A DNA stretch of 41,790 nucleotides. It comes from Bacteroidota bacterium. Its GTDB lineage: Bacteria; Bacteroidota; Bacteroidia; B-17B0; Aurantibacillaceae. A model generated the notes under the pieces. That model was given only the letters and a program-made list of their open reading frames with translations, was not told the origin of the DNA and searched no databases. Below are positions 23,722 to 40,935 of this stretch, one piece after another; position 1 is the first letter of the stretch, and each line of letters opens with the position of its first letter. Location of the stretch: positions 1 through 41,790 of the forward strand of contig JAJONO010000041.1 of the NCBI GenBank assembly GCA_021323535.1, given 5' to 3'. A program made the translations under genes and the position numbers.

Positions 23722-23731
23722 AGACAGGGAA

Positions 23732-24559
23732 TTAATACGCGTCAAAATCAGTCAGCTCAAAAAAAGTAGTGTTCTTGTCTACTTTCATTTCGTAGCCACC
23801 CAGCGTTTTAAATATCAGGTTCAGCGGCGATGGTTTCAGTTTATCGGGTAGGCGGAACTTCACTCCCCTTTCAAAATTTTTCATATTTAACCCGATTGCC
23901 ATCTTAAATATGGATCCTTTGTTGCTTAATGCAACTCCGGCAAATTCTTTTCTCTCACTTAAAATGGCATCAATAAAACCAATGTGTGTGCGTGAAGTAA
24001 CGGCCTGCTTATTTTTAAAATATTTTGTCTCGGGATTATTCACCCTCCATTGTACTTTTTTTTCATCCCATGCTTCGCGAAAATAATTTACAGGATCGTT
24101 CGCTGAAGATAACTTTCCCGGAAAAATGTATACATCAAGAGGAGCCACCACTTTAAACCCGAGGCGTTTCAGGTAACCATCGGTAGTATTCTGGTTTGCA
24201 ACACCTGTAACAAATTTGTAACCCAATTCTGCAGCGTAATCATAGGTCATTGCGGCAAGTTTCGTGAAAAGGCCCTTTCCCCTGTGATCATTATGTGTAG
24301 CAACGTTAAGCGCAAGTATTCCTTTTACAATTTGTCCATTATAGAAATACTCTGTAGGAAGTGCCACATAATGCGCGATCAGTTTTCCGTCATAATAAGC
24401 ATCGTATCCAACCACTTTGCCCGAAGGATTCTGATTGTATTGCCAGTCGAGAAAAGCGGGCGTATATTTTTTTGTTTCTGTAAATACTTCTGTCAGCAAC
24501 TCCGAATAAGATTGAATCTTTTCTTTACTGACTTCTGTTTTTGAAAACGTATATTCCAT
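23732..24559 (-). CDS. GNAT-family N-acyltransferase
   Basis: A 275-residue protein. The N-terminal 150 residues are a GNAT fold with the acyl-CoA loop NDHRGKGLFTKLAAMTYDYA, followed by VTGVANQNTTDGYLKRLGFK. The remaining residues form a second, GNAT-like or substrate-binding part. The ATG directly follows the deacetylase stop (TAAATG). With that neighbour it could acylate an amine exposed on a sugar, but acetylation of a small metabolite is also possible. Confidence 0.8.
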   Translation of the reverse strand: MEYTFSKTEVSKEKIQSYSELLTEVFTETKKYTPAFLDWQYNQNPSGKVVGYDAYYDGKLIAHYVALPTEYFYNGQIVKGILALNVATHNDHRGKGLFTKLAAMTYDYAAELGYKFVTGVANQNTTDGYLKRLGFKVVAPLDVYIFPGKLSSANDPVNYFREAWDEKKVQWRVNNPETKYFKNKQAVTSRTHIGFIDAILSERKEFAGVALSNKGSIFKMAIGLNMKNFERGVKFRLPDKLKPSPLNLIFKTLGGYEMKVDKNTTFFELTDFDAY

Positions 24560-25384
24560 TTAAATAGTTTTTAAGTAATCCTGGTATGTCATTATTTTTA
24601 CATCCATCTTTAACAAAGCATCCAGCCTGTTGATCAGGTTTTTCCTGTTATAATACATCAAAAAATTATAGAAGCGGCTGTTATTAATTCCCGCGTGCAT
24701 ATAATGTTCCTGTTCGGTATCAAGATCGTAAGGATGAAAATAACTAAGCACAGGTTCTGAGCTTGCGAATCGTTTTTGAAAAGATTGTCGTATAAAGAAA
24801 AAAGGAAGACAACGGAAATAAACTCCTCCGGCGAACGGAATTGTAAGTGGCCCGAATTTATTGAGTGACATTGGTATTTCAACTATAGAGTTGTTCACCT
24901 GCTTTTTACTTTGTCCGAATTCCTGCCAGCCATACAGTGGATTTTGTGCGGGTAGCACCGAGCTTGAATAGGTAATTCCACAGGCAGCCATCACATCGTA
25001 GGCCCATTGCGTTTCTTTTGTAAGCGAAAATACTGGCGCCCTGAACCCTGTCACAGATGATGCTCCGCACTTATAAAGCGCCTCTATGTTTTTTTCAAGA
25101 TCCTTTTTAAATGATTCAGGATTCTGCTTGTTCAATGGAACATGGTTCCAGGTATGACAGGCAAGCTCATGCCCTTCATCAATGATTTTTCGTATAAGGT
25201 CAGGATATTTTTCCGCGACTTCTCCAACCGTAAAGAACGTGCAATTGAAGCCTGTTTTTTTGAGCCAGTCGAGATAGATTTTCGTATTGGCCACTACCCT
25301 GTCTTTATATTGATGGCCGTTAACTACGCCAACACGGGCGTCTTCAAGATCGATACTAAAAAGAAATATGTTCTTAGCTTTCAA
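24560..25384 (-). CDS. Polysaccharide deacetylase, NodB type
   Basis: A 274-residue NodB-fold carbohydrate de-N-acetylase. FSIDLEDARVG holds the catalytic and metal aspartates, HELACHTWNHVPL holds the metal histidines (HxxxH), and VTGFRAPVFSLT is motif 3. A C-terminal extension (SYFHPYDLDTEQEH) resembles the DUF3473 type found with lipid-linked exopolysaccharides. There is no signal peptide, so it probably acts on the cytoplasmic face on an activated sugar or lipid-linked intermediate. Its start overlaps the DUF2304 gene by 11 bp. Confidence 0.9.
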   Translation of the reverse strand: MKAKNIFLFSIDLEDARVGVVNGHQYKDRVVANTKIYLDWLKKTGFNCTFFTVGEVAEKYPDLIRKIIDEGHELACHTWNHVPLNKQNPESFKKDLEKNIEALYKCGASSVTGFRAPVFSLTKETQWAYDVMAACGITYSSSVLPAQNPLYGWQEFGQSKKQVNNSIVEIPMSLNKFGPLTIPFAGGVYFRCLPFFFIRQSFQKRFASSEPVLSYFHPYDLDTEQEHYMHAGINNSRFYNFLMYYNRKNLINRLDALLKMDVKIMTYQDYLKTI

Positions 25385-25739
25385 GTTTCTTTTTCTCCAG
25401 TTCCAGTTTCATCAGCGCGTGTTCCTGGGTAAGGTCCTTAATTTGTTTTTGAAGTCTTGAATTGGTAACTGATAAATGCACCAGGAAAATAATAATAGCA
25501 AAGATTGCGGCAAGAAAAATAAGTGCGGGAGCGTAATAAATGCCCAGCATTTTAGCTACAATATCAAGGCCGTTCCTCCAGATGGCAAACACCAGTAATA
25601 ACAATGTGCAGGCAATCCATACAATAGAATATTCTTCGCGTAATTTTCCTTTAACGATGAGCCGGAAAATAAAAAACATAAACAGCAGTGAGCCAATGAT
25701 GCTCAGCAATTGTATTTTAAATGGTACGACGTTTTCCAT
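25374..25739 (-). CDS. DUF2304 membrane protein
   Basis: A 121-residue protein with three predicted helices, the DUF2304 block KGKLREEYSIVWIACTLLLL then FAIWRNGLDIVAKMLGIYY, and a C-terminal coiled coil (QKQIKDLTQEHALMKLELEK). The family is found beside DPM-like glycosyltransferases and is thought to anchor or regulate them. It overlaps the GT2 gene by 23 bp in another frame, which fits coupled production of the two proteins. Confidence 0.9.
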   Translation of the reverse strand: MENVVPFKIQLLSIIGSLLFMFFIFRLIVKGKLREEYSIVWIACTLLLLVFAIWRNGLDIVAKMLGIYYAPALIFLAAIFAIIIFLVHLSVTNSRLQKQIKDLTQEHALMKLELEKKKLES

Positions 25740-26463
25740 TTGCTTTTAGTCTTATATAAATAAATAAAATACCTAATGAAACTTTCATCATGTAATAAAT
25801 ACTGGAAAAAGTTCCGATCGAAGATGTGCCGCTTTCTCTTGCTTTCATTACCACCGGAATTTCTTTGATAACAAGCGAGTTCATATGATACAGGATAATG
25901 GCTTCGGGCTCGGGATATGTGTCGGGATAATAATTACATACTACATCAATGGTTTTTTTATCAATGGCCCTGAATCCTGATGTACTGTCGCTGATAGTAA
26001 TACCAAGCAACATTCTGATAACACGGCGAAAGTAATTTATTCCGGACCTTCGAAGGTAAGATGATTGAAATCCTTCTTTAGCAAGAAACCTGGAACCAAT
26101 AACAACATTTGCTTTATCTTCAAGCAGAGGTTTTATTAACTCGTGGATATACTCGACCGGGTGCTGACCATCGCCATCAAACTGCAGAGCCATATCATAC
26201 CCGTTTTTCTTTGCATATTTATATCCTGACTGCACTGCTCCACCAATACCAAGATTCACCGGGAGGTTAACATACAAATGCGTGTGTGATCTTATTTCTT
26301 CAAGCGTATTGTCTTTAGAACAATCATTAACCGGAAGCGCGGTAATTTCAACTCCCGGAATAGACAATTGCGACAAGGCGTTGAGGACCTTACCGATATT
26401 TCCTTGTTCGTTATAACAAGGAATAACGATCAGTAGTTTTTTATTGATCCCTGTCCTCTCCAT
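25717..26463 (-). CDS. GT2 glycosyltransferase, dolichol-phosphate-mannose-synthase-like
   Basis: A 248-residue GT-A enzyme. LLIVIPCYNEQGNIGKVLNA is the nucleotide-binding start, NDCSKDNT follows, FDGDGQHPVEYI carries the DxD, and FRAIDKKTIDVV is the acceptor region. It resembles DPM1-type enzymes that move a sugar from a nucleotide to polyprenyl phosphate on the inner face of the membrane. The sequence has no fused membrane helices; the overlapping DUF2304 protein probably supplies them. The product would serve as donor for the GT-C proteins around it. Confidence 0.92.
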   Translation of the reverse strand: MERTGINKKLLIVIPCYNEQGNIGKVLNALSQLSIPGVEITALPVNDCSKDNTLEEIRSHTHLYVNLPVNLGIGGAVQSGYKYAKKNGYDMALQFDGDGQHPVEYIHELIKPLLEDKANVVIGSRFLAKEGFQSSYLRRSGINYFRRVIRMLLGITISDSTSGFRAIDKKTIDVVCNYYPDTYPEPEAIILYHMNSLVIKEIPVVMKARESGTSSIGTFSSIYYMMKVSLGILFIYIRLKANGKRRTI

Positions 26464-27853
26464 TTTTAAGTTTTTTGTAATCCGGTTCTTTCAGGTCGCG
26501 CCACCATTCACCGTGGCGTTGATCATCGAGATAGTACTTTCCGAACACGCTCCAATATGTTTTTTCGGTCATAGAATTAAAGTGGATATAGTTTTTTGTA
26601 TACTGATAACTTTGTCCAACATTAAGGCATATCCCTGAAAAAACAACTGCAAAAAAAAGTGGTTGCAGAATTCTCAATGATTTTTTAAAGTTACTGCTTT
26701 CAAGGAAAAAATCACACATGGAAGCGATCGGAAAAGCGAGGAAAGCAATGTGCTGGCAAAATCCTCTTGCCCCGAAGCAGCCGCCGAAGAACCAATCCCA
26801 CCAACAACTTAAAATGTAAAGATTAAGCAGTAACACGATTAAAATTCCCCATCTGTATTTTTTCATTTCGCCTCTCATGAAGAAAAAGCCAAGAAATGCA
26901 AGGCTAATTAGCGGCGTGTATGTGATCCAGCCCTTTCTATAACTGAATAAGATGTTCAGTATTTGTGGGTCTCCCCAATAAAAACGCTCACCGAGTGCAG
27001 CATACGATGAGTAAAAGTATAATCCGGTATAATGTTTCCAGAAAAGTAATTGTGGGATCCAGATAACGAAGGCTGCCGCCATCATAACGAGCACAAGTTT
27101 CCAGTGTTTCAGAAACTTTTGTACCTGCAACTTAAATGAAGCTTTGTCGCTTACTCCCCAGAGTATAAAAATAATAACAGTCAGAATTTCGGTTGGACGA
27201 ATAAGACTAATGAAACCAATCAGTATTCCCATCAAAATGGTTTTTCCAAGGGTTGGCGATTTATGCCAATGGTAACCCGTAAGAAGCATGGCGCTGATCA
27301 GGAAGAACAAATATCCATGCGGCATTTCGTTTTCGCCGTACGTATAATAGAAGAGCATGGTACCAAACAGCGTAATGGCAAGTGTAATTGTTACCACGCG
27401 TTCCGAATAAAACTTAATAAGAAGATTTCTCAGGAGAATAAGGCCCAAAAGCCCATAAAAAATACTGCCCCAGTGAATGCAGGTAGCAAAAGGCTGGGAA
27501 AATCCGTCAAGCGGAGCATTTGTATTTGAAGCCACTTTGTAGCCCAATGCAAAAAAAGGTGAGTAAAACACAGCCATGCCATAGGTACCGCGCGACATGC
27601 GTTCGCCATTGGGTCCTATTGCAAGAAAGTGTTTAACATTGTCACCCTGGAATTCGAAAGAGTTGTTGTTACAAAATTTAGCAGGCAGAAAACTATAATA
27701 GTTAGCCACATCCCATACAAAATTATTCTGATCGAAGTGCCACTTTCTCCATAGATCCATTGTAAAAGCCGAGAAGCAGAAACAGAAAATAATGAACAAG
27801 CATGAAGGTTTCATGAGTACAGAAAAATCGACGTTCCAATTAATTTTTTTCAC
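26441..27853 (-). CDS. Polytopic membrane protein, GT-C-like
   Basis: A 470-residue protein with about eleven helices. The first outer loop has VWDVANYYSFLPAKFCNNNS with an Asp in the GT-C catalytic position and GPNGERMSRGTYGMAVFYSP. A second region, WWDWFFGGCFGARGFCQHIA, is aromatic-rich. The arrangement resembles Bacteroidota GT-C relatives of unknown acceptor. It overlaps the GT2 gene by 23 bp and starts 13 bp after the preceding gene, so it is in one operon. Confidence 0.75.
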   Translation of the reverse strand: MKKINWNVDFSVLMKPSCLFIIFCFCFSAFTMDLWRKWHFDQNNFVWDVANYYSFLPAKFCNNNSFEFQGDNVKHFLAIGPNGERMSRGTYGMAVFYSPFFALGYKVASNTNAPLDGFSQPFATCIHWGSIFYGLLGLILLRNLLIKFYSERVVTITLAITLFGTMLFYYTYGENEMPHGYLFFLISAMLLTGYHWHKSPTLGKTILMGILIGFISLIRPTEILTVIIFILWGVSDKASFKLQVQKFLKHWKLVLVMMAAAFVIWIPQLLFWKHYTGLYFYSSYAALGERFYWGDPQILNILFSYRKGWITYTPLISLAFLGFFFMRGEMKKYRWGILIVLLLNLYILSCWWDWFFGGCFGARGFCQHIAFLAFPIASMCDFFLESSNFKKSLRILQPLFFAVVFSGICLNVGQSYQYTKNYIHFNSMTEKTYWSVFGKYYLDDQRHGEWWRDLKEPDYKKLKNGEDRDQ

Positions 27854-27866
27854 TTGAACCTTGCGT

Positions 27867-29471
27867 TTATCTTAGTTTATAAATTATTAATCCCCTGTGA
27901 TAACCAATTATTTTATCACTGAAATTTTTCTGAAACCTTTGGTTGAACTTAGCCGAATCATTAAGAACAAGATATTTGATATCAGGCATCTTCAAAAATT
28001 TTTCTACCGAGTCCCGTGGATCGTCATCGCTGATATTAATTCCCGCCTGATCCATTAAATACATACTGCTAAAATACGTGTTATCGAAAGCATTCATAAC
28101 TCTGTCTGTACGTTTAATACCTTTTGCTCTCATTACCGGTTCAAGATCATGGTAGGGCCTTAGATCGATTCCTGTCAGATATTCGTTTTCGTACAGGTTC
28201 CTGTTATAATAACTGGTCTTGCAATTAATAACCGATTCCTTCATATTAAAAAACAGAACTACCAGAAGAATTAAGGCAACAGGACGAAAATAGTTTATAG
28301 TAAGCCTGTAGGCAATGTCTCCGGCAGTAAGGAACAGGAAAAAAACGCATGGCAACATAGCGATAATGTAATAGTCGTGATGCTCGAACTGATAAGTAAA
28401 AAAATAATAGTAGCAGCCAGATCCAAGCGTATAAAGAACAGTAATACTAAACAGAAGCCTGTTCGCAAACCTGGCGGAGAGTATGATCACAATAAGATAG
28501 GCAGCCATAAGCACATACGTTTCATAAGAAAAATACTGCAGTCCCCAATATTTCACCTGGTTATTCCACACTCTCATCAATGCCTCCCAGCTATCTACCA
28601 TAAGCGGTTTCATGGCAAAGGTTTCGTTACCATGCTTCATGGAGAGATATCGCGCGTAAAAATACCAGGCAAAAACAAACATGAATCCAATGAAAATTCT
28701 CAGCAACACTTTTCGTTTATTCTCAAACAATCTTCCTTTTTCTGTCTTTTTAAAAAACTTCATCGCGTCAAGAACCACCAGGCAGATCACCACCATAAAT
28801 GCCATGAGGGCGACAGATTTGATCAGCGCACCCAGCGTGCCAAATAAGATGAAGAAATTCAAATCCTTGTTCCTTCCTGAACCGAGGTATTGAAAGAAAA
28901 AATACCATGACGCGAGAACAAAACCAAGGCTTGGCGCGTCGGGCAGATAATTAGGCGTGTAATAAAGAAAAACAGGTGAAAGAACTGCGGAGCCAACCAT
29001 AAAAACAGTGAGGATGCTGTTCTGAATATATTTGAGACATAAGCGGTAAAAACAAAATAATCCAAACACAACAATAACCAGACTAATAAGTTTAAGGAAG
29101 ACATCGTTGAATCCGAAAAGCTTATACATCACAGCCGCTGCATAATAAACAATTGGAAATTCAAGACCGGTAACACCATCGCCAATAGAATAACATTGTA
29201 TACGGGGCACGAAAAAATTCATATCGGTTTTATAATAGTTCTGTGCCACCGAAGCGCGAAGGCTCTGACTAAAGGCATGCACGGAAGAAGGGCGGTTCTC
29301 CATGAATTTATAAACGCCGATAGTAACAAATAAAAGATGGAGCGCGGCAAAAAAAACAGCGAACCTGAAAAGCGTGGCCATTTTCTTGTTGCTTATGGAA
29401 AACTTCCCGAATAAGGCGTCCAGCGGCCGGTTCACTTTTCCGGCAAATGATTTAATACGCTCAACAATCAT
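27867..29471 (-). CDS. GT39/ArnT-like glycosyltransferase
   Basis: A 534-residue membrane protein with about twelve helices. After helix 1, DMNFFVPRIQ and GDGVTGLEFPIVYYAAAVMY match the ArnT/PMT (GT39/GT83) pattern of an Asp, an aromatic-rich loop and the EFP(I/L)xxY block. A soluble C-terminal domain of about 100 residues follows the last helix (MRAKGIKRTDRVMNAFDNTY). It should transfer a sugar from polyprenyl phosphate to an outer-face acceptor. Its ATG overlaps the lipoprotein stop in an ATGA junction. Confidence 0.85.
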   Translation of the reverse strand: MIVERIKSFAGKVNRPLDALFGKFSISNKKMATLFRFAVFFAALHLLFVTIGVYKFMENRPSSVHAFSQSLRASVAQNYYKTDMNFFVPRIQCYSIGDGVTGLEFPIVYYAAAVMYKLFGFNDVFLKLISLVIVVFGLFCFYRLCLKYIQNSILTVFMVGSAVLSPVFLYYTPNYLPDAPSLGFVLASWYFFFQYLGSGRNKDLNFFILFGTLGALIKSVALMAFMVVICLVVLDAMKFFKKTEKGRLFENKRKVLLRIFIGFMFVFAWYFYARYLSMKHGNETFAMKPLMVDSWEALMRVWNNQVKYWGLQYFSYETYVLMAAYLIVIILSARFANRLLFSITVLYTLGSGCYYYFFTYQFEHHDYYIIAMLPCVFFLFLTAGDIAYRLTINYFRPVALILLVVLFFNMKESVINCKTSYYNRNLYENEYLTGIDLRPYHDLEPVMRAKGIKRTDRVMNAFDNTYFSSMYLMDQAGINISDDDPRDSVEKFLKMPDIKYLVLNDSAKFNQRFQKNFSDKIIGYHRGLIIYKLR

Positions 29472-30001
29472 ATATAGCTCACTTTTTGCCTCACTGTTAC
29501 TACCAAAGAATCTACATCGAATTTCTCGCCGGCGGAAGGACCAAGAAGTACGAAAGTATTAATGACGTTGTAGGTTTTAAAATCTAATTGAGCAGGAAGG
29601 AAAATCGAATCTTTGAAATGCGACCATGTGTTTACATCGATCAGGTGACTCTTCAGAAAACGGGCCTTCCAGCAAAGTGTTTCATTTTTTTCATTCGATC
29701 CAACAACTGTTATTGTACCGTTAGAATACGGGTAGTTACTTCTTGCCCTGCCTTCAAACACCACCCAGAGTTCCTTTTTAATATTCTCTTCGGGAATATG
29801 GAATGTATTGTAAACACCAAATACACCCGGACTTACTAACCTTGAGAAATAAAACTTTCCAATGCTGTCGAACAATAGAGAATCGTCGTGCAGTTTTCCT
29901 TTTTCAGGTACTGATATTTGCCGGCCCACGGTTTTGTAACTTTCTCCGCAGGACGAGAGTAGCACTCCCAGCAAAAACAGAATAGCTGCGAAATATCTCA
30001 T
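29468..30001 (-). CDS. Lipoprotein of unknown function
   Basis: A 177-residue predicted lipoprotein: MRYFAAILFLLGVLLSSC with lipobox LSSC, followed by GESYKTVGRQ. The rest is beta-rich (KELWVVFEGRARSNYPYSNG, then ITVVGSNEKNETLCWKARFL), with no recognised domain. It is placed between scoB (2 bp) and a GT39 gene (ATGA overlap), so it is likely made with the glycan enzymes and sits in the periplasm or outer membrane. Confidence 0.75.
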   Translation of the reverse strand: MRYFAAILFLLGVLLSSCGESYKTVGRQISVPEKGKLHDDSLLFDSIGKFYFSRLVSPGVFGVYNTFHIPEENIKKELWVVFEGRARSNYPYSNGTITVVGSNEKNETLCWKARFLKSHLIDVNTWSHFKDSIFLPAQLDFKTYNVINTFVLLGPSAGEKFDVDSLVVTVRQKVSYI

Positions 30002-30003
30002 TG

Positions 30004-30660
30004 TTAAATGGTCATTTCTTTTATATCGCCTTCAATGATCAGTTTTCCTGCAGTTGCGTTTTTTATCTGCTCCACAGAAATACCAGGGGCGCGCTCAAGT
30101 AATTTAAATCCTCCTCCGGGAACAATATCATAAACACCAAGTTCTGTAACGATCTTTTTCACGCACTTTACCCCGGTAAGAGGTAATTCGCATTTTGCCA
30201 GAAGCTTTGATTGACCCGCTTTGTTCACCTGCTGCATGGCTACAATAATATCTTTGGCGCTTGCCACAAGATCCATGGCTCCACCCATTCCTTTTACCAT
30301 TTTCCCTGGAATTTTCCAGTTGGCAATATCTCCGTTTTCGCTTACTTCCATTGCTCCCAGAATAGTAAGATCCACTTTCTGCGAGCGGATCATTCCAAAG
30401 CTCATGGCACTATCAAAAATGCTGGAGCCTTTAAGAAGTGTAATGGTTTGTTTGCCGGCGTTAATAAGATCGGCATCTTCTTCGCCTTCATAAGGGAAAG
30501 GACCCATTCCAAGGATTCCATTCTCAGATTGTAATACCACGTCGTAACCATCGGGAATATAATTAGCCACCAACGTAGGGATCCCTATTCCGAGGTTAAC
30601 AAACATTCCGTTTCTTACTTCTTTTGCAATGCGTTTTGCGATTCCATTCTTATCTAACAT
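30004..30660 (-). CDS. scoB: 3-oxoacid CoA-transferase subunit B
   Basis: A 218-residue beta subunit of succinyl-CoA:3-ketoacid CoA-transferase, which exchanges CoA between succinyl-CoA and acetoacetate. MLDKNGIAKRIAKEV is the family start and VLQSENGILGMGPFP carries the catalytic glutamate. GAMEVSENGDIANWKIPGK and GMGGAMDLVASAKDIIVAMQ are typical. I start at ATG 30660 (the in-frame TTG at 30666 overlaps the previous stop). Unusually, scoA lies two genes away, with MBOAT and SGNH genes between. Confidence 0.95.
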   Translation of the reverse strand: MLDKNGIAKRIAKEVRNGMFVNLGIGIPTLVANYIPDGYDVVLQSENGILGMGPFPYEGEEDADLINAGKQTITLLKGSSIFDSAMSFGMIRSQKVDLTILGAMEVSENGDIANWKIPGKMVKGMGGAMDLVASAKDIIVAMQQVNKAGQSKLLAKCELPLTGVKCVKKIVTELGVYDIVPGGGFKLLERAPGISVEQIKNATAGKLIIEGDIKEMTI

Positions 30661-30662
30661 AA

Positions 30663-31706
30663 TCAATAAGCTGCTTTATAATAATTATTAAACTGTGTTC
30701 TTAATCCATTGGCGAGGTTTTTAGCAATCGCCATTCTTCCTTTGTAACTGTAATGCTCGGTGGTCCAGTTCTGATCGGTATATTCTTTCCCCGGAACTGC
30801 CTCCAGATTATCAATCACCTTGCAATTATTCTTATTGTAACGGTTTACTAAAAAGTCTCTGTTTTGCTTCATTAAAAATACTAATTCTTTACCAACCAGA
30901 CTATCGGCATATTGAAGGTTTTCGGCAAGAAGGTTAAAGTAAAGATTTACGTTATTTTTATGACACCAGTCCGCCATAAAATCAAAATCTTTAACACGGG
31001 GATTATTTTCCTTAATGTTGAAGGCGTAGGTTTTCACATAATGGCAGGCCAGCGTTATTTTCTCCGCATCCCACGAACCGTCGGGTTTAGTGTAAGTGCC
31101 CTGGGCCATATGATAATCCCACTCGGTAACCGTTTTATATTTGAATGGAAAAGGAAATTCGAGTTGAGTAGTTTCCCATTCTTTTATCATATCACGTTCT
31201 CTCTGCTGTTCGGTTTTATTATCAAAAGCATTTAATGAAAGCAAAAAACGGTTCAATAGTTTAGGATACGGTTTTAAAAGTACTACTGATTCCTGTAATG
31301 GCGTTTCAAGTTTGGAATGTATCCAGTTGGCGTCGAAAGAGCGCAGGTTCAATGTAATGATAACCGCCTTTGGTTTATTTTCAGTCAGATCGATATGTGT
31401 GAGCCAATGACGATAGATCCCTCCATGAGTAGCAGGTTTGTTTATAGCCGTAATTTTTAATGAAGGATAGAAAAAATTAGTGATCTCTGAAATAGATTGT
31501 TTAATGGAATCATCCTCCCTTACATTAAAGTTCGAAGACTCTGCAAAATAAAAAATATCGGTATCGGGTTGTTTTTTCCTGAGCTCTACTACCTGCTCAC
31601 ATTTTTCTTCAAGATCTTTTTTGTAAAATGTAAAATTATAAATAAGATTAAGCCCGGCGATTATAATCACCAGCGCAAAAATCCTTATTATAATTTTTTT
31701 AAACAT
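30663..31706 (-). CDS. SGNH/AlgJ-DltD-like membrane-anchored protein
   Basis: A 347-residue protein. An N-terminal membrane anchor (MFKKIIIRIFALVIIIAGLN) is followed by a periplasmic domain. FYFAESSNFNVRED is a candidate for the nucleophile Ser, and DQNWTTEHYSYKGRMAIAKN near the C-terminus resembles the DxxH block of SGNH-like AlgJ/AlgX/DltD proteins, which take acyl groups from an MBOAT partner to O-acylate a glycan. Start is ATG 31706, overlapping the MBOAT stop (TGATG); the longer frame to 31763 lies inside MBOAT. The SGNH assignment is moderately supported. Confidence 0.75.
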   Translation of the reverse strand: MFKKIIIRIFALVIIIAGLNLIYNFTFYKKDLEEKCEQVVELRKKQPDTDIFYFAESSNFNVREDDSIKQSISEITNFFYPSLKITAINKPATHGGIYRHWLTHIDLTENKPKAVIITLNLRSFDANWIHSKLETPLQESVVLLKPYPKLLNRFLLSLNAFDNKTEQQRERDMIKEWETTQLEFPFPFKYKTVTEWDYHMAQGTYTKPDGSWDAEKITLACHYVKTYAFNIKENNPRVKDFDFMADWCHKNNVNLYFNLLAENLQYADSLVGKELVFLMKQNRDFLVNRYNKNNCKVIDNLEAVPGKEYTDQNWTTEHYSYKGRMAIAKNLANGLRTQFNNYYKAAY

Positions 31707-33112
31707 CAGAACTGAAAATAAATGAATGTAAATTTTTGCGTGCCCGAAAGCGCCATTAAACAAAATATCAATACAGCGTATACGGCCCAGCGAACAGGTA
31801 TTTTTGTAACGCCAATACGTTTATCGAATCTTGAATTATAAAGAAAAATATCAATGACAATAAGCACTATGCTAAAAACGAAAGCGTATAAGTAAGGGAC
31901 ATCTGTTTTTTCTATCTTCCAGTTTTTCACCATGGCTTTAATGATCAGTTTTGCTTTCGGAAAATCTTCTGCCCTGAAAAAAATCCAGATAAAGGACGCT
32001 ACAATAAATGTTTTAATGGTAAGGAGAACATTAACCACGTTCCATCCTTCTCTTATTTTAAATTTCAGAATTTTTGAAGTGTATCTTTCAGTCAGTATCA
32101 TCAATCCGTGCAGGGCGCCCCACACTACGAATGTCCAGCTGGCACCGTGCCATAAACCACTTACCATAAATACAATTAAAATGTTGATGCTCCATCGTGG
32201 CAAGGTAACCCTGTTTCCTCCAAGGGGAATGTACAGGTAATCTCTGAACCAGGTACTGAGCGAAATGTGCCAGCGCGTCCAGAATTCGGTAATACTTTTT
32301 GAAAGATAAGGCGTGTTAAAATTATCCATGATCTTAATATCGAGCATCCGCGCGCTTCCAAGAGCAATGGTAGAGTATCCAAAAAAATCGGCGTAGATCT
32401 GGAACGAAAATAAAAATACAGCGCCGAGCACCTGCAGCGAATTATATTTCATAGGATCGCTGTAAACCTGGTTCACAAAAGGCGCAATGTTATCGGCTAC
32501 GGCCATTTTGATAAACAAACCGAATAAAATAAGTTTAAATCCGTCGGAAAAATTTTCGTACTTGGGTTTATGCTCCTCCCTTAATTCATTCCCCAGAGTT
32601 TCGTAACGCTCAATTGGGCCCGCCACCATTTGCGGAAAGAACAACACATAGTTCGCGAAATAGCCAAGATGGCGTTCGGCCTTTTGGCGGCCGCGATACA
32701 CCTCAATAGTGTAGCTCATAGACTGGAACGTGTGAAACGATAAACCGATCGGTAAAATAATATCGAGATTTACAGGATGAAATTCTTTCCCGAACCAGCT
32801 GAATACAGTAACAAGATTTTCATTGGCAAAATTAAAATACTTAAAGAAAGCGAGCATTCCTATGTTCGCAATTAAACTCACGACAAGGTAAAACAACCGT
32901 AGTCGTCCTTTTAACTGTTCAATGGTAAGAGCCGCGAGGTAATCGATTAAAATAATAGCGAAGAGGATCAGGATGTACTTTGGCACAAACACCATGTAGA
33001 AGTAACAACTGATAATGAATATCCATATCCACCTTAATTTGTGTGGTATAAGATAGTACATGCCAACAGCAATTGGCAGAAAAAATAAAAAATGTAAAGA
33101 GTTAAATAACAC
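31706..33112 (-). CDS. MBOAT-family O-acyltransferase (AlgI-like)
   Basis: A 468-residue membrane-bound O-acyltransferase of the AlgI/DltB type. FFPQMVAGPIERYETLGNEL is the conserved early block, EFWTRWHISLSTWFRDYLYI carries the first signature with RWH, and SGLWHGASWTFVVWGALHGL holds the catalytic histidine. It has about eleven helices. It should pass acyl groups from CoA across the membrane to the SGNH partner coded next. It is 15 bp downstream of scoA. Confidence 0.95.
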   Translation of the reverse strand: MLFNSLHFLFFLPIAVGMYYLIPHKLRWIWIFIISCYFYMVFVPKYILILFAIILIDYLAALTIEQLKGRLRLFYLVVSLIANIGMLAFFKYFNFANENLVTVFSWFGKEFHPVNLDIILPIGLSFHTFQSMSYTIEVYRGRQKAERHLGYFANYVLFFPQMVAGPIERYETLGNELREEHKPKYENFSDGFKLILFGLFIKMAVADNIAPFVNQVYSDPMKYNSLQVLGAVFLFSFQIYADFFGYSTIALGSARMLDIKIMDNFNTPYLSKSITEFWTRWHISLSTWFRDYLYIPLGGNRVTLPRWSINILIVFMVSGLWHGASWTFVVWGALHGLMILTERYTSKILKFKIREGWNVVNVLLTIKTFIVASFIWIFFRAEDFPKAKLIIKAMVKNWKIEKTDVPYLYAFVFSIVLIVIDIFLYNSRFDKRIGVTKIPVRWAVYAVLIFCLMALSGTQKFTFIYFQF

Positions 33113-33127
33113 GTATTAATCAGCTTA

Positions 33128-33844
33128 CTACGCGGTTTTTTTTCTAACCGTACGTTGCTCAATTCGTTTTTCATATTTTGCCCCCTGGAAAATACGATGT
33201 ACGTAAATTCCCGGTGTATGAATGTGATCGGGATCCAGTTCGCCGGCAGGTACCAGTTCTTCTACCTCAGCAATTGTAATTTTTCCGGCCATGGCCATCA
33301 TTGGATTAAAGTTGCGGGCCGTACTTTTAAAGATCAGGTTTCCGGCGGTATCACCTTTCCAGGCTTTTACGAGAGCGAAATCCGACTCAAAGGCTTTTTC
33401 CATGAGGTACTCTTTTTCCTGGCCATTGAACGTGAATTTTCGCACCTCTTTTCCCTGTGCCACTTCAGTTCCAACACCGGCCGGGGTAAATATCACAGGC
33501 ATGCCATAACCGGCCGCCATACATCGTGTAGCCAGTGTTCCCTGCGGAACCAGCTCTACTTCCAATTCGCCACTCAGCATCTGGCGCTCGAACTCATCAT
33601 TTTCTCCCACATAACTGGAGATCATTTTTTTAATCTGTTTGGTTTGCAATAATAATCCAAGTCCGAAATCGTCGACCCCCGCGTTGTTACTGATGCAGGT
33701 AAGGTTTTTTACACCCATCTTCACCAACTGGGCAATACAGTTTTCAGGAATTCCGCAAAGACCGAACCCACCCACCATTAAGGTCATTCCGTCTTTAATA
33801 TCTTTCGTTGCTTCTTCTACGTTTTTTACTGCTCGGTTAATCAT
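33128..33844 (-). CDS. scoA: 3-oxoacid CoA-transferase subunit A
   Basis: A 238-residue alpha subunit of succinyl-CoA:3-ketoacid CoA-transferase. It shows [20 protein letters not shown], then [37 protein letters not shown], and the closing [13 protein letters not shown]. Both subunits look intact, so the separation from scoB is an arrangement change and not decay. A nearby GT-C gene ends 14 bp upstream. Confidence 0.95.
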
Positions 33845-33858
33845 GGCTGAATTTATAA

Positions 33859-35427
33859 TTATTTTTCTATTAATTTAGGTAGGAATTCTCCTTTTCTGTA
33901 ATAAAATTTTTCTACAATAAGGAACTCATATTTGCTGGTTTTTATTGTATCCTTTATGACAAAATTCTTTTTTATCGCCTCAGGATCAAAAGAACCATTA
34001 ATGACAGGGTTATTGATCAGAAAATCAAATTCCCCTTCGTAGAACCAGTTAATGTTTGAGCCCTGTTCGTAAATATTGCCTTCGGGGAAAGCCGAGAGCA
34101 CCTGGATATTATTTTTGGAAAGCACAGAGACTTTTTTTCCAACCCAATACCTGGATAGTCCGCGTTTAAGATTATGTTTCTGACAAACGCTGTCTGTTAT
34201 TCTGACTTCTTCAGGATAATACGCGAAAAAATCGTTCAGCCTCCTGGGCTCCAGGCTGAACAAGCCCACCAGCAATGTAACTGCAATTATTCCGTAAGGA
34301 AGCACCGATAAAACTTTAATCTGTTTTAATCTTTCCGAAACCCATCCTACGCAGTACAGTAGTATAATACCAAACAAAAAGAACGTGTGAACGCAGTAAC
34401 GCATGGTATCGTAGCCGCCATAACTTCCTCTTAAAACAGGAGCCGCGAAGGCCGCGCCGGTAAAAACCACGAAAAACCAAAGCATAAATAACATGGGACG
34501 AGGAATGGTTCTTCTTCTGAAAAACGCCACAATGGGAATAATCAGAAACGCGGCTAATGTGAAGATGATGGTAATAGCCCGCAGCCCTGGAAGTGTCATG
34601 TAATTAATGAGCTGCGTTTTTAACATGTTAAAAGAGGAAACTACGTATTCAAACCCTTCTAACCTGTAGGGTTCAATGAAGGTGAGATACCTGTTTTCTT
34701 TAATAAAATTATAAAACATAAGGGCAGCAACGGTTCCCGTAATTATTATGACTATGTTTATAAGAGCCTTTACCAACTTTCCTTTTTCAAGAGTAAAAAC
34801 CGAAGCAACAATGAATGGAGCAACGAACATTACAACGAACAAAACATCACTGAAAGTAAACACTAATACGCAGAGAAAAAGCAAAATATATTTTACCCGG
34901 TCCTTTATTCCGGATACACAAAGGGCAATAGCGATGAGGGTGTTAATAAAGGCCCCGCCATGGTAACATGGGTTAGTGAAAAAGAATGCGAAGGAAAAAT
35001 CATGCGTGAAGAAAAAGCTTTCAAAATAAAAAGTAGATAAGAACACCGGGATCAACCATGAATGTTTTACCCATTCAGGCTTTGCTGTTCTTTTAAAAAT
35101 GTAAACCATCAAAAACGCGGCTACGAATAATTGAACCACCTGGTAAACAAATGTAGCAAGAATCACTTTTCCTCCGCAAAGGTAGAGGAACGTGAAATAA
35201 AAAAGATAATCCGGAAAAACACATGGAGCAGCGGCGAATTGCCATCCTTTTATGTCTCCTCCGTCATAAAAAATGTCTTTGTAGATACAATAGGTTCCAA
35301 ACGTATCAGAATTAAAGAGTGTCTCAAACTGCGTGATCGAAAAAAGAGAATAACTGCACAGTACCGTGATTAACAGAACAAGATACGATAACGCGAGAAG
35401 ATGATTTTCTTTTATTTTTTTTAGCAT
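33859..35427 (-). CDS. Polytopic membrane protein, GT-C-like
   Basis: A 522-residue protein with about eleven helices. The first outer loop has [20 protein letters not shown] and [20 protein letters not shown], with an Asp placed as in GT-C enzymes. A soluble C-terminal part of about 110 residues holds [20 protein letters not shown]. No family can be named with certainty. It lies between the 544-residue GT (39 bp) and scoA (14 bp). Confidence 0.7.
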
Positions 35428-35466
35428 AGAAACCGGGCGATCTCTGCGTTTCTTACAACCTGGATC

Positions 35467-37101
35467 TTATTTTGAGTTTACTTGATTTTGTCTTACAAAT
35501 ATATTGATTTTATCCTTTTTGTAGGGAAAGTATCTTTGAAATTCATACTCCTTTAAAAGGTCAAAGCCTTCTTCTTTATCAAACTGAATAATAAATAATT
35601 TATCCTTTGAAAAATAACCGAAAGACATTAAAAAACCCTGGTCTGTCCAACATCCCGTTTCAAAACCTCCATTGATATATTCATGAGGAACTTTATGCTT
35701 CTCGTTAAGAAAACGATAGGCCTCCCATCTTTTTTCGTTCCAGGTAAAATAATCTTTCGTTCCGGCCACCGAAATGTAGGTCATTGCAAGAAGCGGGATC
35801 ATAACAAGAGAATATTGCATCCTGAAGCTCTTTAACATGTAAGCAAAAAGAATAAAAAAAGTGACAATTAACGGAAGATTATACCTGTCGAAATAACTTT
35901 CGGCGATCAACAATAAAAAGATGTAAGACAAAGTAAAACTGATAAGAAAAATAATTACCGGATGAAACACCCTGGGCTTATCATTGCTTCTGAAACGTGT
36001 TATTATCCATAAAAAAAGTGTGGACAATGTTATAACCAACCCTGTGAATTTTACAATTTCCATAATGTCACCAAATGTGTCGGATGTAGCATGATGGCGC
36101 CCTTGAATAGATTGGTAAAGGGTTTCGGGACCAACTTTCATATTCATGAAAATATTCTGAGAAGGGAAGTTTTCGTTCCTGAATAAAAAATAAGCAATGC
36201 CAAAAGATATAATACCAGCGGATACACTCACAATGACTTTATTCCTACGGATAAGATCGACCACAAACAGCAGCGCCACCGGGAATGAATAAACAAGAAT
36301 GTGAAGAACAACAGAGAGAAAACGTTCTTTGAACGCGATGGAAAATTTGTCCCAGAAAACAGGACTGAGTATATCAAGTCCGCTTGAAAATTTATAGGTA
36401 GAATCTTTCGGCAAGATCCTGCTTAAATAGCCTTCATATATTTTAAACAATGTCATAACAGCCGCCAGTACAAGAATTGCCATAAGCACGCTCTGCCATT
36501 TTTTTTCTTTTCTGAACAAACAGGAAACAATAAAACAAACCGGCGCTATAATTCCGAACTGACGAAGCAACACTAACAGAGACGAAAAAAAGAATACAGG
36601 GAACATATACATGAGTCGCCCTGTTTCATGATAACGATAAATGTAATAACAACACAGGATGATGAGCGTACAGAAATTCACATCTGTCATGTATGTATTG
36701 GTAAGATTAAAAAAGATAGGATTGAACAGAAGCACGGCGCAAAGCATAACCGCTGCCATTTTATTTTCATTGATCTTAATTACCAGTTTGTACAGGAACA
36801 AACAGGCAATGATGGCCGAAACCATTGTTGAAATGCGCAGAACAACATGCGAAAAGCCAAATATTTTTGTAAAAAAACTACCCCACAGAATATGAGAACA
36901 GAGGGTCATGGCGGGCCATCTTCCGAAATTGAATTCAGCTTTTTCATTAAAGACCTGAACAGCTTTGGCGTAGGACCAATCATCGTTAAGTGGAAAATCG
37001 CCGAGGGGAGCGATGAGAATTTCGGCGATTATAAATATGATTACTAAAAAAGAAAATTGTTTATGCTCTCTGAAAAGATGTTTCATTTTATTGTAAAGCA
37101 T
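35467..37101 (-). CDS. GT39-like glycosyltransferase (GT-C fold)
   Basis: A 544-residue membrane protein with about twelve helices. The N-terminal loop GDFPLNDDWSYAKAVQVFNE carries the Asp-Asp pair of GT-C/PMT_2 enzymes, followed by FNFGRWPAMTLCSHILWGSF. It has a soluble C-terminal segment (YFTWNEKRWEAYRFLNEKHK). It should use a polyprenyl-phosphate sugar outside the inner membrane. It starts 23 bp after mrcA; ATG 37101 is used, with 37086 as an alternative. Confidence 0.82.
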   Translation of the reverse strand: MLYNKMKHLFREHKQFSFLVIIFIIAEILIAPLGDFPLNDDWSYAKAVQVFNEKAEFNFGRWPAMTLCSHILWGSFFTKIFGFSHVVLRISTMVSAIIACLFLYKLVIKINENKMAAVMLCAVLLFNPIFFNLTNTYMTDVNFCTLIILCCYYIYRYHETGRLMYMFPVFFFSSLLVLLRQFGIIAPVCFIVSCLFRKEKKWQSVLMAILVLAAVMTLFKIYEGYLSRILPKDSTYKFSSGLDILSPVFWDKFSIAFKERFLSVVLHILVYSFPVALLFVVDLIRRNKVIVSVSAGIISFGIAYFLFRNENFPSQNIFMNMKVGPETLYQSIQGRHHATSDTFGDIMEIVKFTGLVITLSTLFLWIITRFRSNDKPRVFHPVIIFLISFTLSYIFLLLIAESYFDRYNLPLIVTFFILFAYMLKSFRMQYSLVMIPLLAMTYISVAGTKDYFTWNEKRWEAYRFLNEKHKVPHEYINGGFETGCWTDQGFLMSFGYFSKDKLFIIQFDKEEGFDLLKEYEFQRYFPYKKDKINIFVRQNQVNSK

Positions 37102-37124
37102 AAATGAAATAGCAGATTTACTTA

Positions 37125-39398
37125 CTACTCAAATTCATTGATATCGAGCGTACCTTCCGTGTCTTGCGAATCGTATACACTACAATCCAGTTCCAGGTTC
37201 GGATCAAGTTGTTTTGGACGTGGGAAATCGCCTTTGCTTACTTTCAAGGTTTTATCGGCATATACTTTACTAAAGAATTTTCCCCAGATCGGGAGCGCCA
37301 TAGAAGCTCCTTGTCCTTCTACCATCGAATTAAAGTGAATGCTGCGATCTTCTCCTCCAACCCATGCGCCACCTACAAGTTCGGGGGTAAGGCCAATGAA
37401 CCAGCCATCAGCATTTTTCTGAGTTGTTCCTGTTTTACCTGCAATCTGGTTCATGAGTTTGTGGCGCGATCTTAAACGACTTCCGGTACCACCATCTACA
37501 ACGCCACGCATAAGCTGTATCATAACGTAAGCTCTTTCTTCGCTGAACACCTCATCGGTTTTTGGAATAAATTCTTCAAGAACTTTTCCGTTCTTGTCTT
37601 CAATGCGTGTAATAAATGTGGGTTCAATGTATTGTCCTTTATTAGCAAAGGTTGAGTTGGCGGCCACCATTTCAAACACGTTTATATCGGCTGTACCAAG
37701 GCAAATAGAAGGCACTTCGGGGATTTCGGAGGTAACACCAAGGCGACGAGTTAACTGTACCACGGCGGTTGGTCCGTATTTTTTCATGATGAATGCCGTT
37801 ACGTAATTCACTGAATTAGCCAGCGCTTTTTTCAATGTAAGCATTTTGCCATCGAGTTTGCTGTTTGGACCGTCGGAGTTATTCGGACACCAGTTTTTTC
37901 CATCAGGTAATTCAATACACGTTTTTACATTGGGCACCTGGTAACAAGGCGAAAGTCCTTCCTGGATGGCGAGCGCATATACAAATGGTTTAAATGTTGA
38001 TCCTACCTGCCTGCGGCTCACTTTTACGTGATCGTATTTAAAGTGTTTGTGATTGATGCCACCTACCCAGGCTTTAACATAACCTGTTTGTGGTTCCATG
38101 GTCATGAACCCGGTTTGTAGAAAACTCTTGTAATACTTAATACTGTCGAAGGGCGTCATGGTTGTATCAATATCTCCGCGAAGACTGTATACCGTCATTT
38201 GAACCGGTTTATTGAATGAAGCCACAATTTCACTTTCGCTCATGCCCGCTCTTTTTGCAGCACGGTAACGGTCGCTTCGTTTAATAGAAGAGTTCATAAT
38301 ATTATCGATCTCCTGTTTATTTACATTCCAGGCAAAAGGATAATTTTTCTTTTTGGCAAGATCTTTATTGAACAATCTCTGAAGATCCTGCATGTGTTCG
38401 TACACAGCTTCTTCGGCGTATTTCTGCATACGCGAATCAATTGTGGTATAGATCCGGAGTCCGTCTTTATAAATGTTATAAGGTTTTCCTGTAGCTGGGT
38501 TGATGTGTTTTTCGCACCACGATTTCATGAAATTATCACGGAGGTATTCCCTGAAGTAAGGCGCAAGTCCATCGTTATGATCTTCGGGATGAAAACTTAA
38601 ACCCAGGGGCAATGTTTTAAGGCTGTCGTATTTTTGTTTTGTGAGATAACCGTATTTCACCATCTGATTTAAAACCACGTTGCGGCGGTGCAAGGTTGTA
38701 TCGGGGTGTCGAATAGGATTAAACAGCGAGGGATTCTTTGCCATACCAATAAGCATAGCGGCCTGTTCAATTTTGAGACTATCCTGTGTCCTTCCAAAAT
38801 AAATCTGTGAAGCAGACTTAACACCAACGGCAAGATTAAGGAAATCAAATTTATTGAGGTAAAGCGTCATGATCTCGTCTTTGGTATACAATTTCTCAAG
38901 ACGCGCGGCAATAACCCATTCCTTCATTTTACGGATAACAAGCGCGGGTTTGCTGAGTTTTTCGTTGCGCGGAAACATCATTTTAGCGAGCTGCTGCGTG
39001 ATGGTACTTCCACCGCCTCTGCTTCCACCAGTAAAAATTCCGGATGCGGAACGGCCAAGCGCTTTAATATCTACGCCGCTGTGCTCATAAAACCGGGCAT
39101 CTTCTGTTGCCACAAGAGCTTTTACAAGATCGCTGTCGAGTTGGGCGTAATTAACGTTCACCCGGTTTTCGCTGTAATATTTACCAAGTATTTTCATGTC
39201 GCCACTATACACAACGGTAGCGAGGCTGTTTTTAGGATTAAGTAGCTCGTCTACTTTAGGAAGAGGGCCGAAAGCGCCGGTAGTGATAAGGATAACAAGA
39301 AGAAAGATGATGAGAACAGGACTGCAAAACAGGATCCACAACCATTTTACGAATTTACTGCCGGGAGTCTTAGTAGTCTTTGGAGCCTTAGTAGACAT
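37125..39398 (-). CDS. mrcA: Penicillin-binding protein 1A (transglycosylase/transpeptidase)
   Basis: A 757-residue class A PBP that polymerises and crosslinks peptidoglycan. One membrane helix covers about residues 17-42. The GT51 domain has the catalytic Glu99 (ATEDARFYEHSGVDIKALG) and GGSTITQQLAKMMFPRNEKL. The transpeptidase domain has the acylated Ser467 in GSTFKPF, the SVN motif at Ser529, and KTGTT at 655. The first gene of a 14-gene minus-strand run. TAAAAATA (39406-39413, plus-strand reading) just upstream is a plausible degenerate -7 box, giving a very short leader. Confidence 0.97.
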   Translation of the reverse strand: MSTKAPKTTKTPGSKFVKWLWILFCSPVLIIFLLVILITTGAFGPLPKVDELLNPKNSLATVVYSGDMKILGKYYSENRVNVNYAQLDSDLVKALVATEDARFYEHSGVDIKALGRSASGIFTGGSRGGGSTITQQLAKMMFPRNEKLSKPALVIRKMKEWVIAARLEKLYTKDEIMTLYLNKFDFLNLAVGVKSASQIYFGRTQDSLKIEQAAMLIGMAKNPSLFNPIRHPDTTLHRRNVVLNQMVKYGYLTKQKYDSLKTLPLGLSFHPEDHNDGLAPYFREYLRDNFMKSWCEKHINPATGKPYNIYKDGLRIYTTIDSRMQKYAEEAVYEHMQDLQRLFNKDLAKKKNYPFAWNVNKQEIDNIMNSSIKRSDRYRAAKRAGMSESEIVASFNKPVQMTVYSLRGDIDTTMTPFDSIKYYKSFLQTGFMTMEPQTGYVKAWVGGINHKHFKYDHVKVSRRQVGSTFKPFVYALAIQEGLSPCYQVPNVKTCIELPDGKNWCPNNSDGPNSKLDGKMLTLKKALANSVNYVTAFIMKKYGPTAVVQLTRRLGVTSEIPEVPSICLGTADINVFEMVAANSTFANKGQYIEPTFITRIEDKNGKVLEEFIPKTDEVFSEERAYVMIQLMRGVVDGGTGSRLRSRHKLMNQIAGKTGTTQKNADGWFIGLTPELVGGAWVGGEDRSIHFNSMVEGQGASMALPIWGKFFSKVYADKTLKVSKGDFPRPKQLDPNLELDCSVYDSQDTEGTLDINEFE

Positions 39399-39405
39399 AT
39401 GGGGG

Positions 39406-39413
39406 TAAAAATA
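39406..39413 (-). promoter_or_regulatory. Possible -7 box of mrcA
   Basis: TATTTTTA on the minus strand differs from TAnnTTTG at the last base and lies 7 bp before the ATG. No -33 element is clear. Confidence 0.3.
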
Positions 39414-39489
39414 CTAAAAAGCCCGACTGGTGAAAGTGAAATAACGCAAAATTTGTAAGCGGGTGGCTGAAAAGATTATTTGGAAACAT

Positions 39490-39502
39490 CTATAATTTGT
39501 AG
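39490..39502. promoter_or_regulatory. Candidate operator 1 of the XRE-S24 regulator
   Basis: CTATAATTTGTAG differs at one base from the perfect 13-bp palindrome of operator 2. The two centres are 23 bp apart, about two helical turns, in front of the regulator gene. Confidence 0.55.
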
Positions 39503-39512
39503 TAATTTTAAA

Positions 39513-39525
39513 CTATAATTTATAG
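39513..39525. promoter_or_regulatory. Candidate operator 2 of the XRE-S24 regulator
   Basis: CTATAATTTATAG is a perfect palindrome around a central T and ends 2 bp before the ATG at 39528. A bound dimer there would block translation start or a promoter over the same bases. Confidence 0.6.
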
Positions 39526-39527
39526 CA

Positions 39528-40295: not shown

Positions 40296-40305
40296 TTAGT
40301 GGTAA

Positions 40306-40854: not shown

Positions 40855-40900
40855 ACCCTTTTTGAACAAACTATTTGATTAAATAATCGCGATTCGGCCG

Positions 40901-40919: not shown

Positions 40920-40935
40920 TTGGTTGCCTCCAGAT

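Follow-up and report, generated by a model that had tools for sequence, protein, structure and literature searches.

Envelope-glycan genes in and behind a conserved PBP1A-scoA-scoB string in Bacteroidota

Fourteen genes on one strand

The stretch of DNA analysed here, which we call the window, is 41,790 nucleotides long and is one entire contig (JAJONO010000041.1) of the 5.3 Mb genome of a Bacteroidota bacterium (family Aurantibacillaceae). We concentrate on a run of 14 minus-strand open reading frames (ORFs) occupying 23732-39398, in which the gene of a class A penicillin-binding protein (PBP), PBP1A, stands together with the genes of a 3-oxoacid CoA-transferase (scoA and scoB) and with genes for predicted glycosyltransferases (GTs), acyltransferases and a deacetylase. 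An earlier note on this DNA had described 14 co-directional genes with junctions of 40 bp or less, and this is confirmed, as the spacing ranges from -58 to +39 bp (0, -11, -23, -23, 13, -4, 2, -4, -58, 15, 14, 39 and 23 bp in the order from GNAT to PBP1A). All the overlaps that it named (GT2/DUF2304, GT-C/GT2, DUF2304/deacetylase and the 4-bp ATGA overlap, located at 29468-29471) are present. The value of -58 bp for SGNH/MBOAT is a maximal overlap; because M20 is nearly invariant in the SGNH alignment, the true SGNH gene probably begins at codon 20, which would reduce the overlap to about 1 bp. Families were assigned with Pfam and NCBIfam. The genes, from the 5' end of the run, are as follows.

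PBP1A, 37125..39398, minus strand: class A PBP of 757 amino acids (aa), first gene of the run and part of the backbone (Pfam Transgly 2e-53, Transpeptidase 3.2e-23)
GTC1, 35467..37101, minus strand: PMT_2-type GT-C glycosyltransferase, 544 aa, variable gene (PF13231, 41.9 bits, cut-off 26.1)
GTC2, 33859..35427, minus strand: protein with multiple transmembrane (TM) segments, 522 aa, possible GT-C (unproven), variable gene (without Pfam match)
ScoA, 33128..33844, minus strand: 3-oxoacid CoA-transferase subunit A, backbone gene (TIGR02429, 258.2 bits, cut-off 128.5)
MBOAT, 31706..33112, minus strand: MBOAT acyltransferase, 468 aa, with C-terminal FIYFQF motif (F463/Y465/F468) and His322 (PF03062, 95.4 bits)
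SGNH, 30663..31763, minus strand: SGNH-type acyltransferase, DltD-like (AlphaFold2 (AF2) model and Foldseek; Ser77 and His337 conserved)
ScoB, 30004..30666, minus strand: 3-oxoacid CoA-transferase subunit B, backbone gene (TIGR02428, 312.3 bits, cut-off 243.55)
u177, 29468..30001, minus strand: lipoprotein with a jelly-roll fold like that of carbohydrate-binding modules (CBMs) (Cys18 invariant; AF2 and Foldseek)
GTC3, 27867..29471, minus strand: PMT_2-type GT-C glycosyltransferase, 534 aa (PF13231, 35.2 bits)
GTC4, 26441..27853, minus strand: GT-C-like membrane protein, 470 aa (hhalign; no Pfam match)
GT2, 25717..26463, minus strand: DPM/GtrB-like polyprenyl-phosphate glycosyltransferase, 248 aa (PF00535, 72.9 bits)
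DUF2304, 25374..25739, minus strand: small membrane protein, GT2 partner (PF10066, 98.2 bits)
NodB, 24560..25384, minus strand: NodB/DUF3473 polysaccharide deacetylase, XrtA-type subfamily, below cut-off (PF01522, PF11959)
GNAT, 23732..24559, minus strand: GNAT acyltransferase of 275 aa, last gene of the run (PF13527, 47.6 bits)

PBP1A has both the transglycosylase and the transpeptidase domain of a class A PBP. The gaps of 39 bp or less are compatible with a single transcript but do not prove one, and the genes may be co-expressed. The family assignments also support the earlier note in seeing here a compact locus of co-directional envelope-glycan genes, some for transmembrane glycosylation and others for O-acylation.

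One CoA-transferase is split by two acyltransferase genes

The earlier note had counted a single CoA-transferase gene, which needs correction. Both CoA_trans ORFs exceed the NCBIfam cut-offs for the two 3-oxoacid CoA-transferase subunits, and scoA has a single match in its own genome. Both subunits are therefore present and belong to one enzyme, whose genes lie 2.46 kb apart with MBOAT and SGNH in between.

A ScoA search of 60 relatives matched 53 of them; 40 neighbourhoods were read and then 11 more. The genus counts given below cover 34 scoA loci including the window, and 37 genomes including its own, and they rest on gene finding that takes profile hits first. Loci from named genomes (L042-L121) share genomes with L002-L041 and are excluded from the genus and class counts. 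PBP1A lies upstream of scoA in 32 of the 34 loci (all but L024 and L218, of which L218 is truncated by the end of its contig), and scoB was found in 32 of 34. Rod-type genes (MreC, PBP2 and RodA, identified by Pfam, and MreD, identified from position and size only) are located up to nine genes upstream of scoA in 14/34 loci. No opposite-strand gene intervenes in 10 of these 14 (such genes are found in L013, L016, L017 and L020), and in six (L007, L009, L011, L015, L023 and L028) the complete mreC-mreD-pbp2-rodA order runs straight into PBP1A.

Several variants of the string were also seen. In L014 (G012:C37) ScoA is present in two tandem copies between PBP1A and MBOAT, which share 93% and 91% identity with the window ScoA. 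In another family (L185:9824-11002) the gene between scoA and scoB is that of a thiolase, an expected metabolic neighbour, and at L031:11340-11708 a 23S rRNA intervening-sequence protein (PF05635) occupies this place. Unscanned ORFs of 117-133 aa, similar in size to the L031 insert, are found at the same junction in L032, L157, L168, L179 and L190, so it may be open to unrelated inserts as well. The genome of the window itself contains five Transgly (PF00912) matches, its PBP1A being one of several transglycosylases.

A near-constant MBOAT-SGNH pair at the scoA/scoB junction

In 26/34 genus loci MBOAT-SGNH separates scoA from scoB, and the order MBOAT-SGNH-scoB is uninterrupted in 25/25. A profile search found the SGNH protein in 31 of the 37 genomes, adjoining scoB in 30 of these 31. 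A scan of named genomes with the SGNH alignment gave 179 relatives. Among the best 80 of these 179 the MBOAT gene is the direct neighbour of SGNH in 76; the remaining four are L059, L093, L112 and L117, and in two of them (L059 and L117) the locus begins with the SGNH gene itself. Sco genes are nearby in 29 of the 80. In a tree of MBOAT sequences (78 rows, comprising the named loci, the window and L219-L222, with one pair of identical rows and open forks remaining), location between scoA and scoB needs 2 changes vs 23.8 in shuffles, a pattern that fits one gain in the lineage and one move.

SGNH-adjacent MBOATs of the named loci end in FIYFQF or FIYFRF. When all sequence sets are taken together and identical sequences removed, F463, Y465, F468, H282 and H322 are kept in 82/82 full-length SGNH-adjacent MBOATs, while SGNH S77 is kept in 90/91 (one gap) and E336/H337 in 91/91. 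Such conservation suggests that H322 is the catalytic MBOAT histidine, and that Ser77 and His337 are the catalytic residues of the SGNH protein. A search of the PDB with the MBOAT profile finds DltB at 8e-32. At E 0.01 neither SGNH nor u177 matches a Pfam family, and a PDB sequence search with SGNH found nothing. The AF2 model of SGNH (mean confidence, pLDDT, 89.6) has only DltD chains as its first 11 Foldseek hits in the PDB (E 9.1e-7 to 1e-4), and PatB is absent from the 50 hits listed.

Other copies and neighbours of the pair were recorded too. In three genomes of the genus a second, distant MBOAT-SGNH pair lies away from sco genes (L219, L220 and L221, in G025, G007 and G003) and forms a separate branch of the MBOAT tree. 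In L003 (G016:C27:3999-4145) a short second SGNH-like fragment, covering profile positions 251-302 with one stop, is located in the 277-bp gap before u177; it is possibly a remnant of an earlier acyltransferase copy. A guess from gene sizes, that the pair stands beside a rod operon in rumen Bacteroidales, had to be abandoned, since Pfam identified the genes on L100 as mannose-6-phosphate isomerase, a thioredoxin-like protein, DUF6029 and Omp28.

Glycan genes change from species to species

Membrane glycosyltransferases and their accessory proteins form the second kind of module, a set whose members are exchangeable. Thirty distinct gene strings were found among 31 congeneric loci. GT genes are present between PBP1A and scoA in 14 of these 31, between scoA and scoB in 12, after scoB in 25 and anywhere in 29. 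Only some of the congeners, for instance, have GTC1 between PBP1A and scoA, and no GTC1 was found in the named genomes. DUF2304 was found in 12 of the 37 genomes; contig comparison places it in this locus in nine of these 12.

Some parts of the set travel together. With L042-L121 not counted, u177 directly precedes GTC3 in 10/12 copies and DUF2304 directly follows GT2 in 11/11, with GTC4 before them, two genes upstream of DUF2304, in 8/11. GTC5, which the window does not have, directly precedes MBOAT in 13/13 genus copies. The order GTC4-GT2-DUF2304-NodB-GNAT is common to the window, L010 and the sister genus (L152), so that GNAT follows NodB in all three. In the sister genus, scoB is followed by u177, an oxidoreductase-like gene, GTC9, GTC4, GT2, DUF2304, NodB and GNAT. 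L010, the closest relative, has in addition a second, different MBOAT beside an AlgX-type SGNH protein (PF16822) after GNAT (L010:1955-4521), that is, two O-acylation systems in one run.

Glycosyltransferase genes follow PBP1A-linked scoA across Bacteroidia

For the class, a ScoA search of 197 genomes (some already seen) gave a match in 163. From these, 60 loci were hand-picked to spread over families, a non-random choice with several members in some families, and nine earlier loci were added, giving 69 outside the genus. PBP1A is located up to three genes upstream of scoA in 37 of the 69. Within 6 kb downstream, a co-directional GT2 or GT-C gene is present in 23/37 PBP1A-linked vs 1/32 unlinked loci (Fisher p 1.1e-7), where remote GTs are under-counted because the GT profiles were built from the genus. 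Restricted to unbroken runs, the counts are 20/37 vs 1/32, and counted by family they are 15/24 vs 0/26. Upstream of scoA, taken as a control, such genes occur in 0/37 linked and 0/32 unlinked loci. The association of glycan genes with PBP1A, on which the earlier note had built from one sequence, is thus recurrent and wider than the note could know.

Membrane GT-type genes also part scoA from scoB in two class loci. The separating gene of L182 matches the GTC4 profile at 1.2e-75 and has no Pfam family, and in L189 there are two PMT_2 proteins. In L176, GTC4 and GT2 come after scoA, and scoB is found about 10 kb further on. By the refuting condition that the earlier note had set, namely relatives in which the genes are scattered without association, the glycan genes are neither scattered nor fixed, and they recur at this site in differing combinations.

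Comparison with known systems and a possible mechanism

The MBOAT-SGNH pair invites comparison with PatA/PatB, for which an acyl-shuttle mechanism and an FXYXXF C-terminal motif are reported in PMC12148441. As there, the window has adjacent MBOAT and SGNH genes and an MBOAT ending in FXYXXF with an invariant Tyr and an invariant His; no gene for a carrier protein is present in the run, and carrier-less MBOAT-SGNH systems use acyl-CoA according to the same paper. The window pair differs from PatA/PatB in that DltD is the nearest solved structure to its SGNH model, PatB not being among the 50 hits listed, and in that it splits scoA from scoB. It resembles DltB/DltD, since the MBOAT profile finds DltB and the SGNH model finds DltD; however, here the shuttle motif is carried by the MBOAT itself. 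The MBOAT is not DltB proper, its TIGR04091 score (155.8 of 375 bits) being far below the cut-off. No Pfam family of DltA, DltC or DltX is found among the 14 ORFs, where a microprotein of DltX size falls under the 90-aa ORF limit and genome-wide DltA/DltC were not searched for. Judged by the shuttle motif and the SGNH model, the pair probably works like PatAB or DltBD.

The earlier note had counted four GT-C genes. Two of them, GTC1 and GTC3, pass Pfam PMT_2, and GTC4 is connected with them by profile comparison only (hhalign 87.0% to GTC1 and 85.8% to GTC3). GTC2 could not be confirmed as a GT-C: hhalign gives only 17.5% to GTC1, there is no Pfam or PDB match, and its only support comes from some 11 hydrophobic segments and from conserved Asp residues (S40-D41 and D51 are invariant in 7 sequences). 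Sequence searches of the PDB found nothing with GTC1 and GTC2, and a single match at E 0.63 with GTC4. GT2 matches sll0501 (1.5e-12), which we take to be GtrB, DPM synthase (1.1e-9) and an undecaprenyl-phosphate formamido-arabinose transferase (3e-8), and by homology it is a polyprenyl-phosphate GT-A enzyme. DUF2304 shows three hydrophobic stretches, as judged by eye; GacJ itself is presumably a DUF2304 protein. PMC8035078 describes systems in which a GT-C operates together with a GT-A enzyme and a distinct small protein of three TM segments (GacI/GacJ). GTC4-GT2-DUF2304 resembles such a three-component transmembrane glycosylation system, as it combines in a single cassette a DPM/GtrB-like GT2, a small membrane protein and, in GTC4, a candidate GT-C. 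It differs from Gtr and GacI-GacJ systems by having DUF2304 in place of a GtrA-type flippase, by occurring in Bacteroidota, and by being embedded in PBP1A-scoAB; no GtrA- or Wzx-family flippase is encoded by the 14 ORFs, the rest of the genome not having been searched.

The u177 protein has an invariant Cys18 in 13 members, and its AF2 model (pLDDT 89.8) is a jelly roll whose best Foldseek hits include CBM4, CBM15, CBM6 and CBM16. Jelly rolls are common, and the hits also include capsid, phage-depolymerase and toxin domains. The CBM-like model and the position of the gene ahead of GTC3 make it possible that u177 is a detached carbohydrate-binding module, which would parallel the modules noted on several GT-C enzymes in PMC11127046. 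Its identification as the gliding lipoprotein GldH was rejected (TIGR03511, 18.9 of 78.7 bits, with a match in 1/13 members only). NodB has the DUF3473 deacetylase architecture that the XrtA/PEP-CTERM deacetylases (TIGR03006) presumably share, with H77/H81 invariant in 4 sequences; it differs from them in its score (196.2 of 276.2 bits), and no exosortase is found among the 14 ORFs. ScoA and ScoB pass the cut-offs of their families; the difference from the usual enzyme is that their genes are separated by two acyltransferase genes instead of being adjacent.

These likenesses allow a mechanism to be proposed. GT2, with its membrane partner DUF2304, would load a sugar onto undecaprenyl phosphate, and the GT-C enzymes might then transfer it to a polymer on the outer side of the inner membrane, with the lipoprotein u177 possibly binding the acceptor for GTC3. 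The MBOAT would move an acyl group from acyl-CoA to Tyr465 of its C-terminal FIYFQF tail, and Tyr465 would pass it to Ser77 of the SGNH protein, which in turn would O-acylate the polymer, either peptidoglycan or a GT-C glycan. NodB and GNAT may adjust amino groups.

Interpretation and alternatives

In our opinion the run is best read as a conserved wall-synthesis and metabolism string (PBP1A-scoA-scoB) into which two kinds of envelope-glycan module have been inserted, a site of diversification tied to wall synthesis. We give this reading a probability of about 0.62. The gene order, the families, the motifs, their conservation and the non-random association with PBP1A are results of computation; the reactions, their order, the polymer and co-expression are inferred. 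A stronger version might be proposed, in which PBP1A-scoAB is a site in many Bacteroidia families where glycan enzymes are repeatedly inserted and exchanged at every junction, even between the two subunits of a single enzyme, surface diversity being hard-wired to peptidoglycan synthesis, and in which the MBOAT-SGNH pair is an unrecognised O-acylation system for peptidoglycan or a wall-linked glycan. We consider this version rather unlikely.

A number of points weigh against the reading of inserted modules. No promoter was recognised upstream of PBP1A in scans. Within 22500-41790 there are 20 terminator-like sites vs 17.3 in shuffles and 52 sigma-70-like sites vs 50.8, and Bacteroidota-type -33/-7 boxes on the minus strand number 3 vs 7.1 expected, or 8 vs 6.1 in a relaxed form; none of these is an excess. 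In the class, no GT gene was detected in 14/37 PBP1A-linked loci. The sample was uneven and contains related species, which do not count as independent; the division into linked and unlinked loci partly follows phylogeny, and at least one unlinked locus, L197, ends at a contig edge just before scoA. The figure of 30 distinct strings among 31 is inflated by contig ends that cut some strings. Six of the 37 genus genomes keep the backbone without the pair (the same six whose scoA/scoB junction does not contain it; one of them, G032, is only 60% complete), and in G002, the single exception to SGNH adjoining scoB, the pair lies on a contig without sco genes. Among named sco-type loci, L077 has u177 between SGNH and scoB, and on the short contig of L071 no scoB was seen after SGNH. 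In other orders the pair mostly stands by itself: of the 51 named loci without sco genes nearby, only one (Crocinitomix, L103) has rod or PBP1A genes near the pair, in a check made by BLAST with genus queries, which may miss remote wall genes; the link of the pair to this pathway may thus be positional only. The DltD matches of the SGNH model have modest TM-scores (0.33-0.43) and a root-mean-square deviation of about 15 Å, and the glycosyltransferase status of GTC2 is doubtful, as described above.

The first alternative is that MBOAT-SGNH O-acylates peptidoglycan itself, as a functional analogue of PatAB in Bacteroidota, while PBP1A, joined in relatives by the rod operon, makes the substrate and the GT genes act on a different polymer. 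Unlike the varying GT genes the pair is near-constant, and its acceptor should therefore be present in all these species. Its neighbours are PBP1A and, in 14/34 loci, rod-type genes, and in one other lineage (Crocinitomix catalasitica, L103) it lies near a RodA-PBP2-MreD-MreC cluster, which is on the other strand. Motif and mechanism match PatAB as described in PMC12148441. On the other hand, wall genes near the pair in 1/51 named loci do not favor this idea, and the SGNH model matched DltD, with PatB not among the 50 hits listed. Moreover, GTC5 precedes MBOAT in all 13 of its genus copies and GTC5-like genes accompany the pair elsewhere (on the other strand beside it in L062-L068, two genes after it in L074), which points to a GT-C glycan. 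We regard this alternative as less likely than not.

It is also conceivable that we see chance proximity, that is, a neutral insertion region with many co-directional genes and no functional link. The mosaic content, the lack of promoter or transcript evidence, the many different places that the pair occupies in other orders, and the presence of unrelated inserts such as the PF05635 protein of L031 between scoA and scoB would all agree with it. Nevertheless, the GT excess (23/37 vs 1/32, with an upstream control of 0/37), the SGNH gene adjoining scoB in 30/31 genomes, and the fixed u177-GTC3 (10/12) and GT2-DUF2304 (11/11) pairs speak against it, and we find this explanation unlikely.

The earlier note had assigned all 14 genes to one dedicated pathway making a single decorated surface glycan. 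Tight gene spacing speaks for it, and so does the GTC4-GT2-DUF2304-NodB-GNAT order shared by the window, L010 and the sister genus. However, the PBP1A-scoA-scoB string occurs without a detected GT gene in 14/37 linked loci, DUF2304 is found in 12/37 genus genomes, nearly each species has a different set (30 distinct strings among 31), and ScoAB is a metabolic enzyme. The idea of one pathway is thus not supported, and we consider it very unlikely. Finally, that ScoAB feeds the MBOAT, CoA transfer raising local acyl-CoA (acetoacetyl-, acetyl- or succinyl-CoA) and so explaining the place of the pair between the subunits, would agree with SGNH adjoining scoB in 30/31 genomes and with the use of acyl-CoA by carrier-less systems according to PMC12148441, but it is highly improbable, as PBP1A-scoAB occurs without the pair in other families and GT-C-type genes also split scoA from scoB (L182, L189), so that the split need not concern acyl donors.

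At window positions 1-96, outside the run, there is a 5S rRNA gene truncated by the contig start, and the contig probably ends at an rRNA operon.

Significance

The earlier note knew of no described locus with this gene set, and no such locus, or such recurrence at one site, is evident from the titles and abstract openings of the papers listed in searches of an open-licence library. The enzyme kinds are already known; the novelty lies in their arrangement and in its recurrence at one site across Bacteroidia families. The locus connects peptidoglycan synthesis with the variation of surface glycans in Bacteroidota in a concrete and testable way, and its MBOAT and SGNH genes are a candidate acyltransferase pair for which a Tyr-to-Ser acyl shuttle is predicted. 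Its recurrence could also make the site a handle to find unknown GT-C enzymes across Bacteroidota genomes. In a group of uncultured Bacteroidota, changing sets of GT and acyltransferase genes sit in a conserved string, even between the halves of one enzyme, and this suggests a common place at which these bacteria vary their surface sugars.

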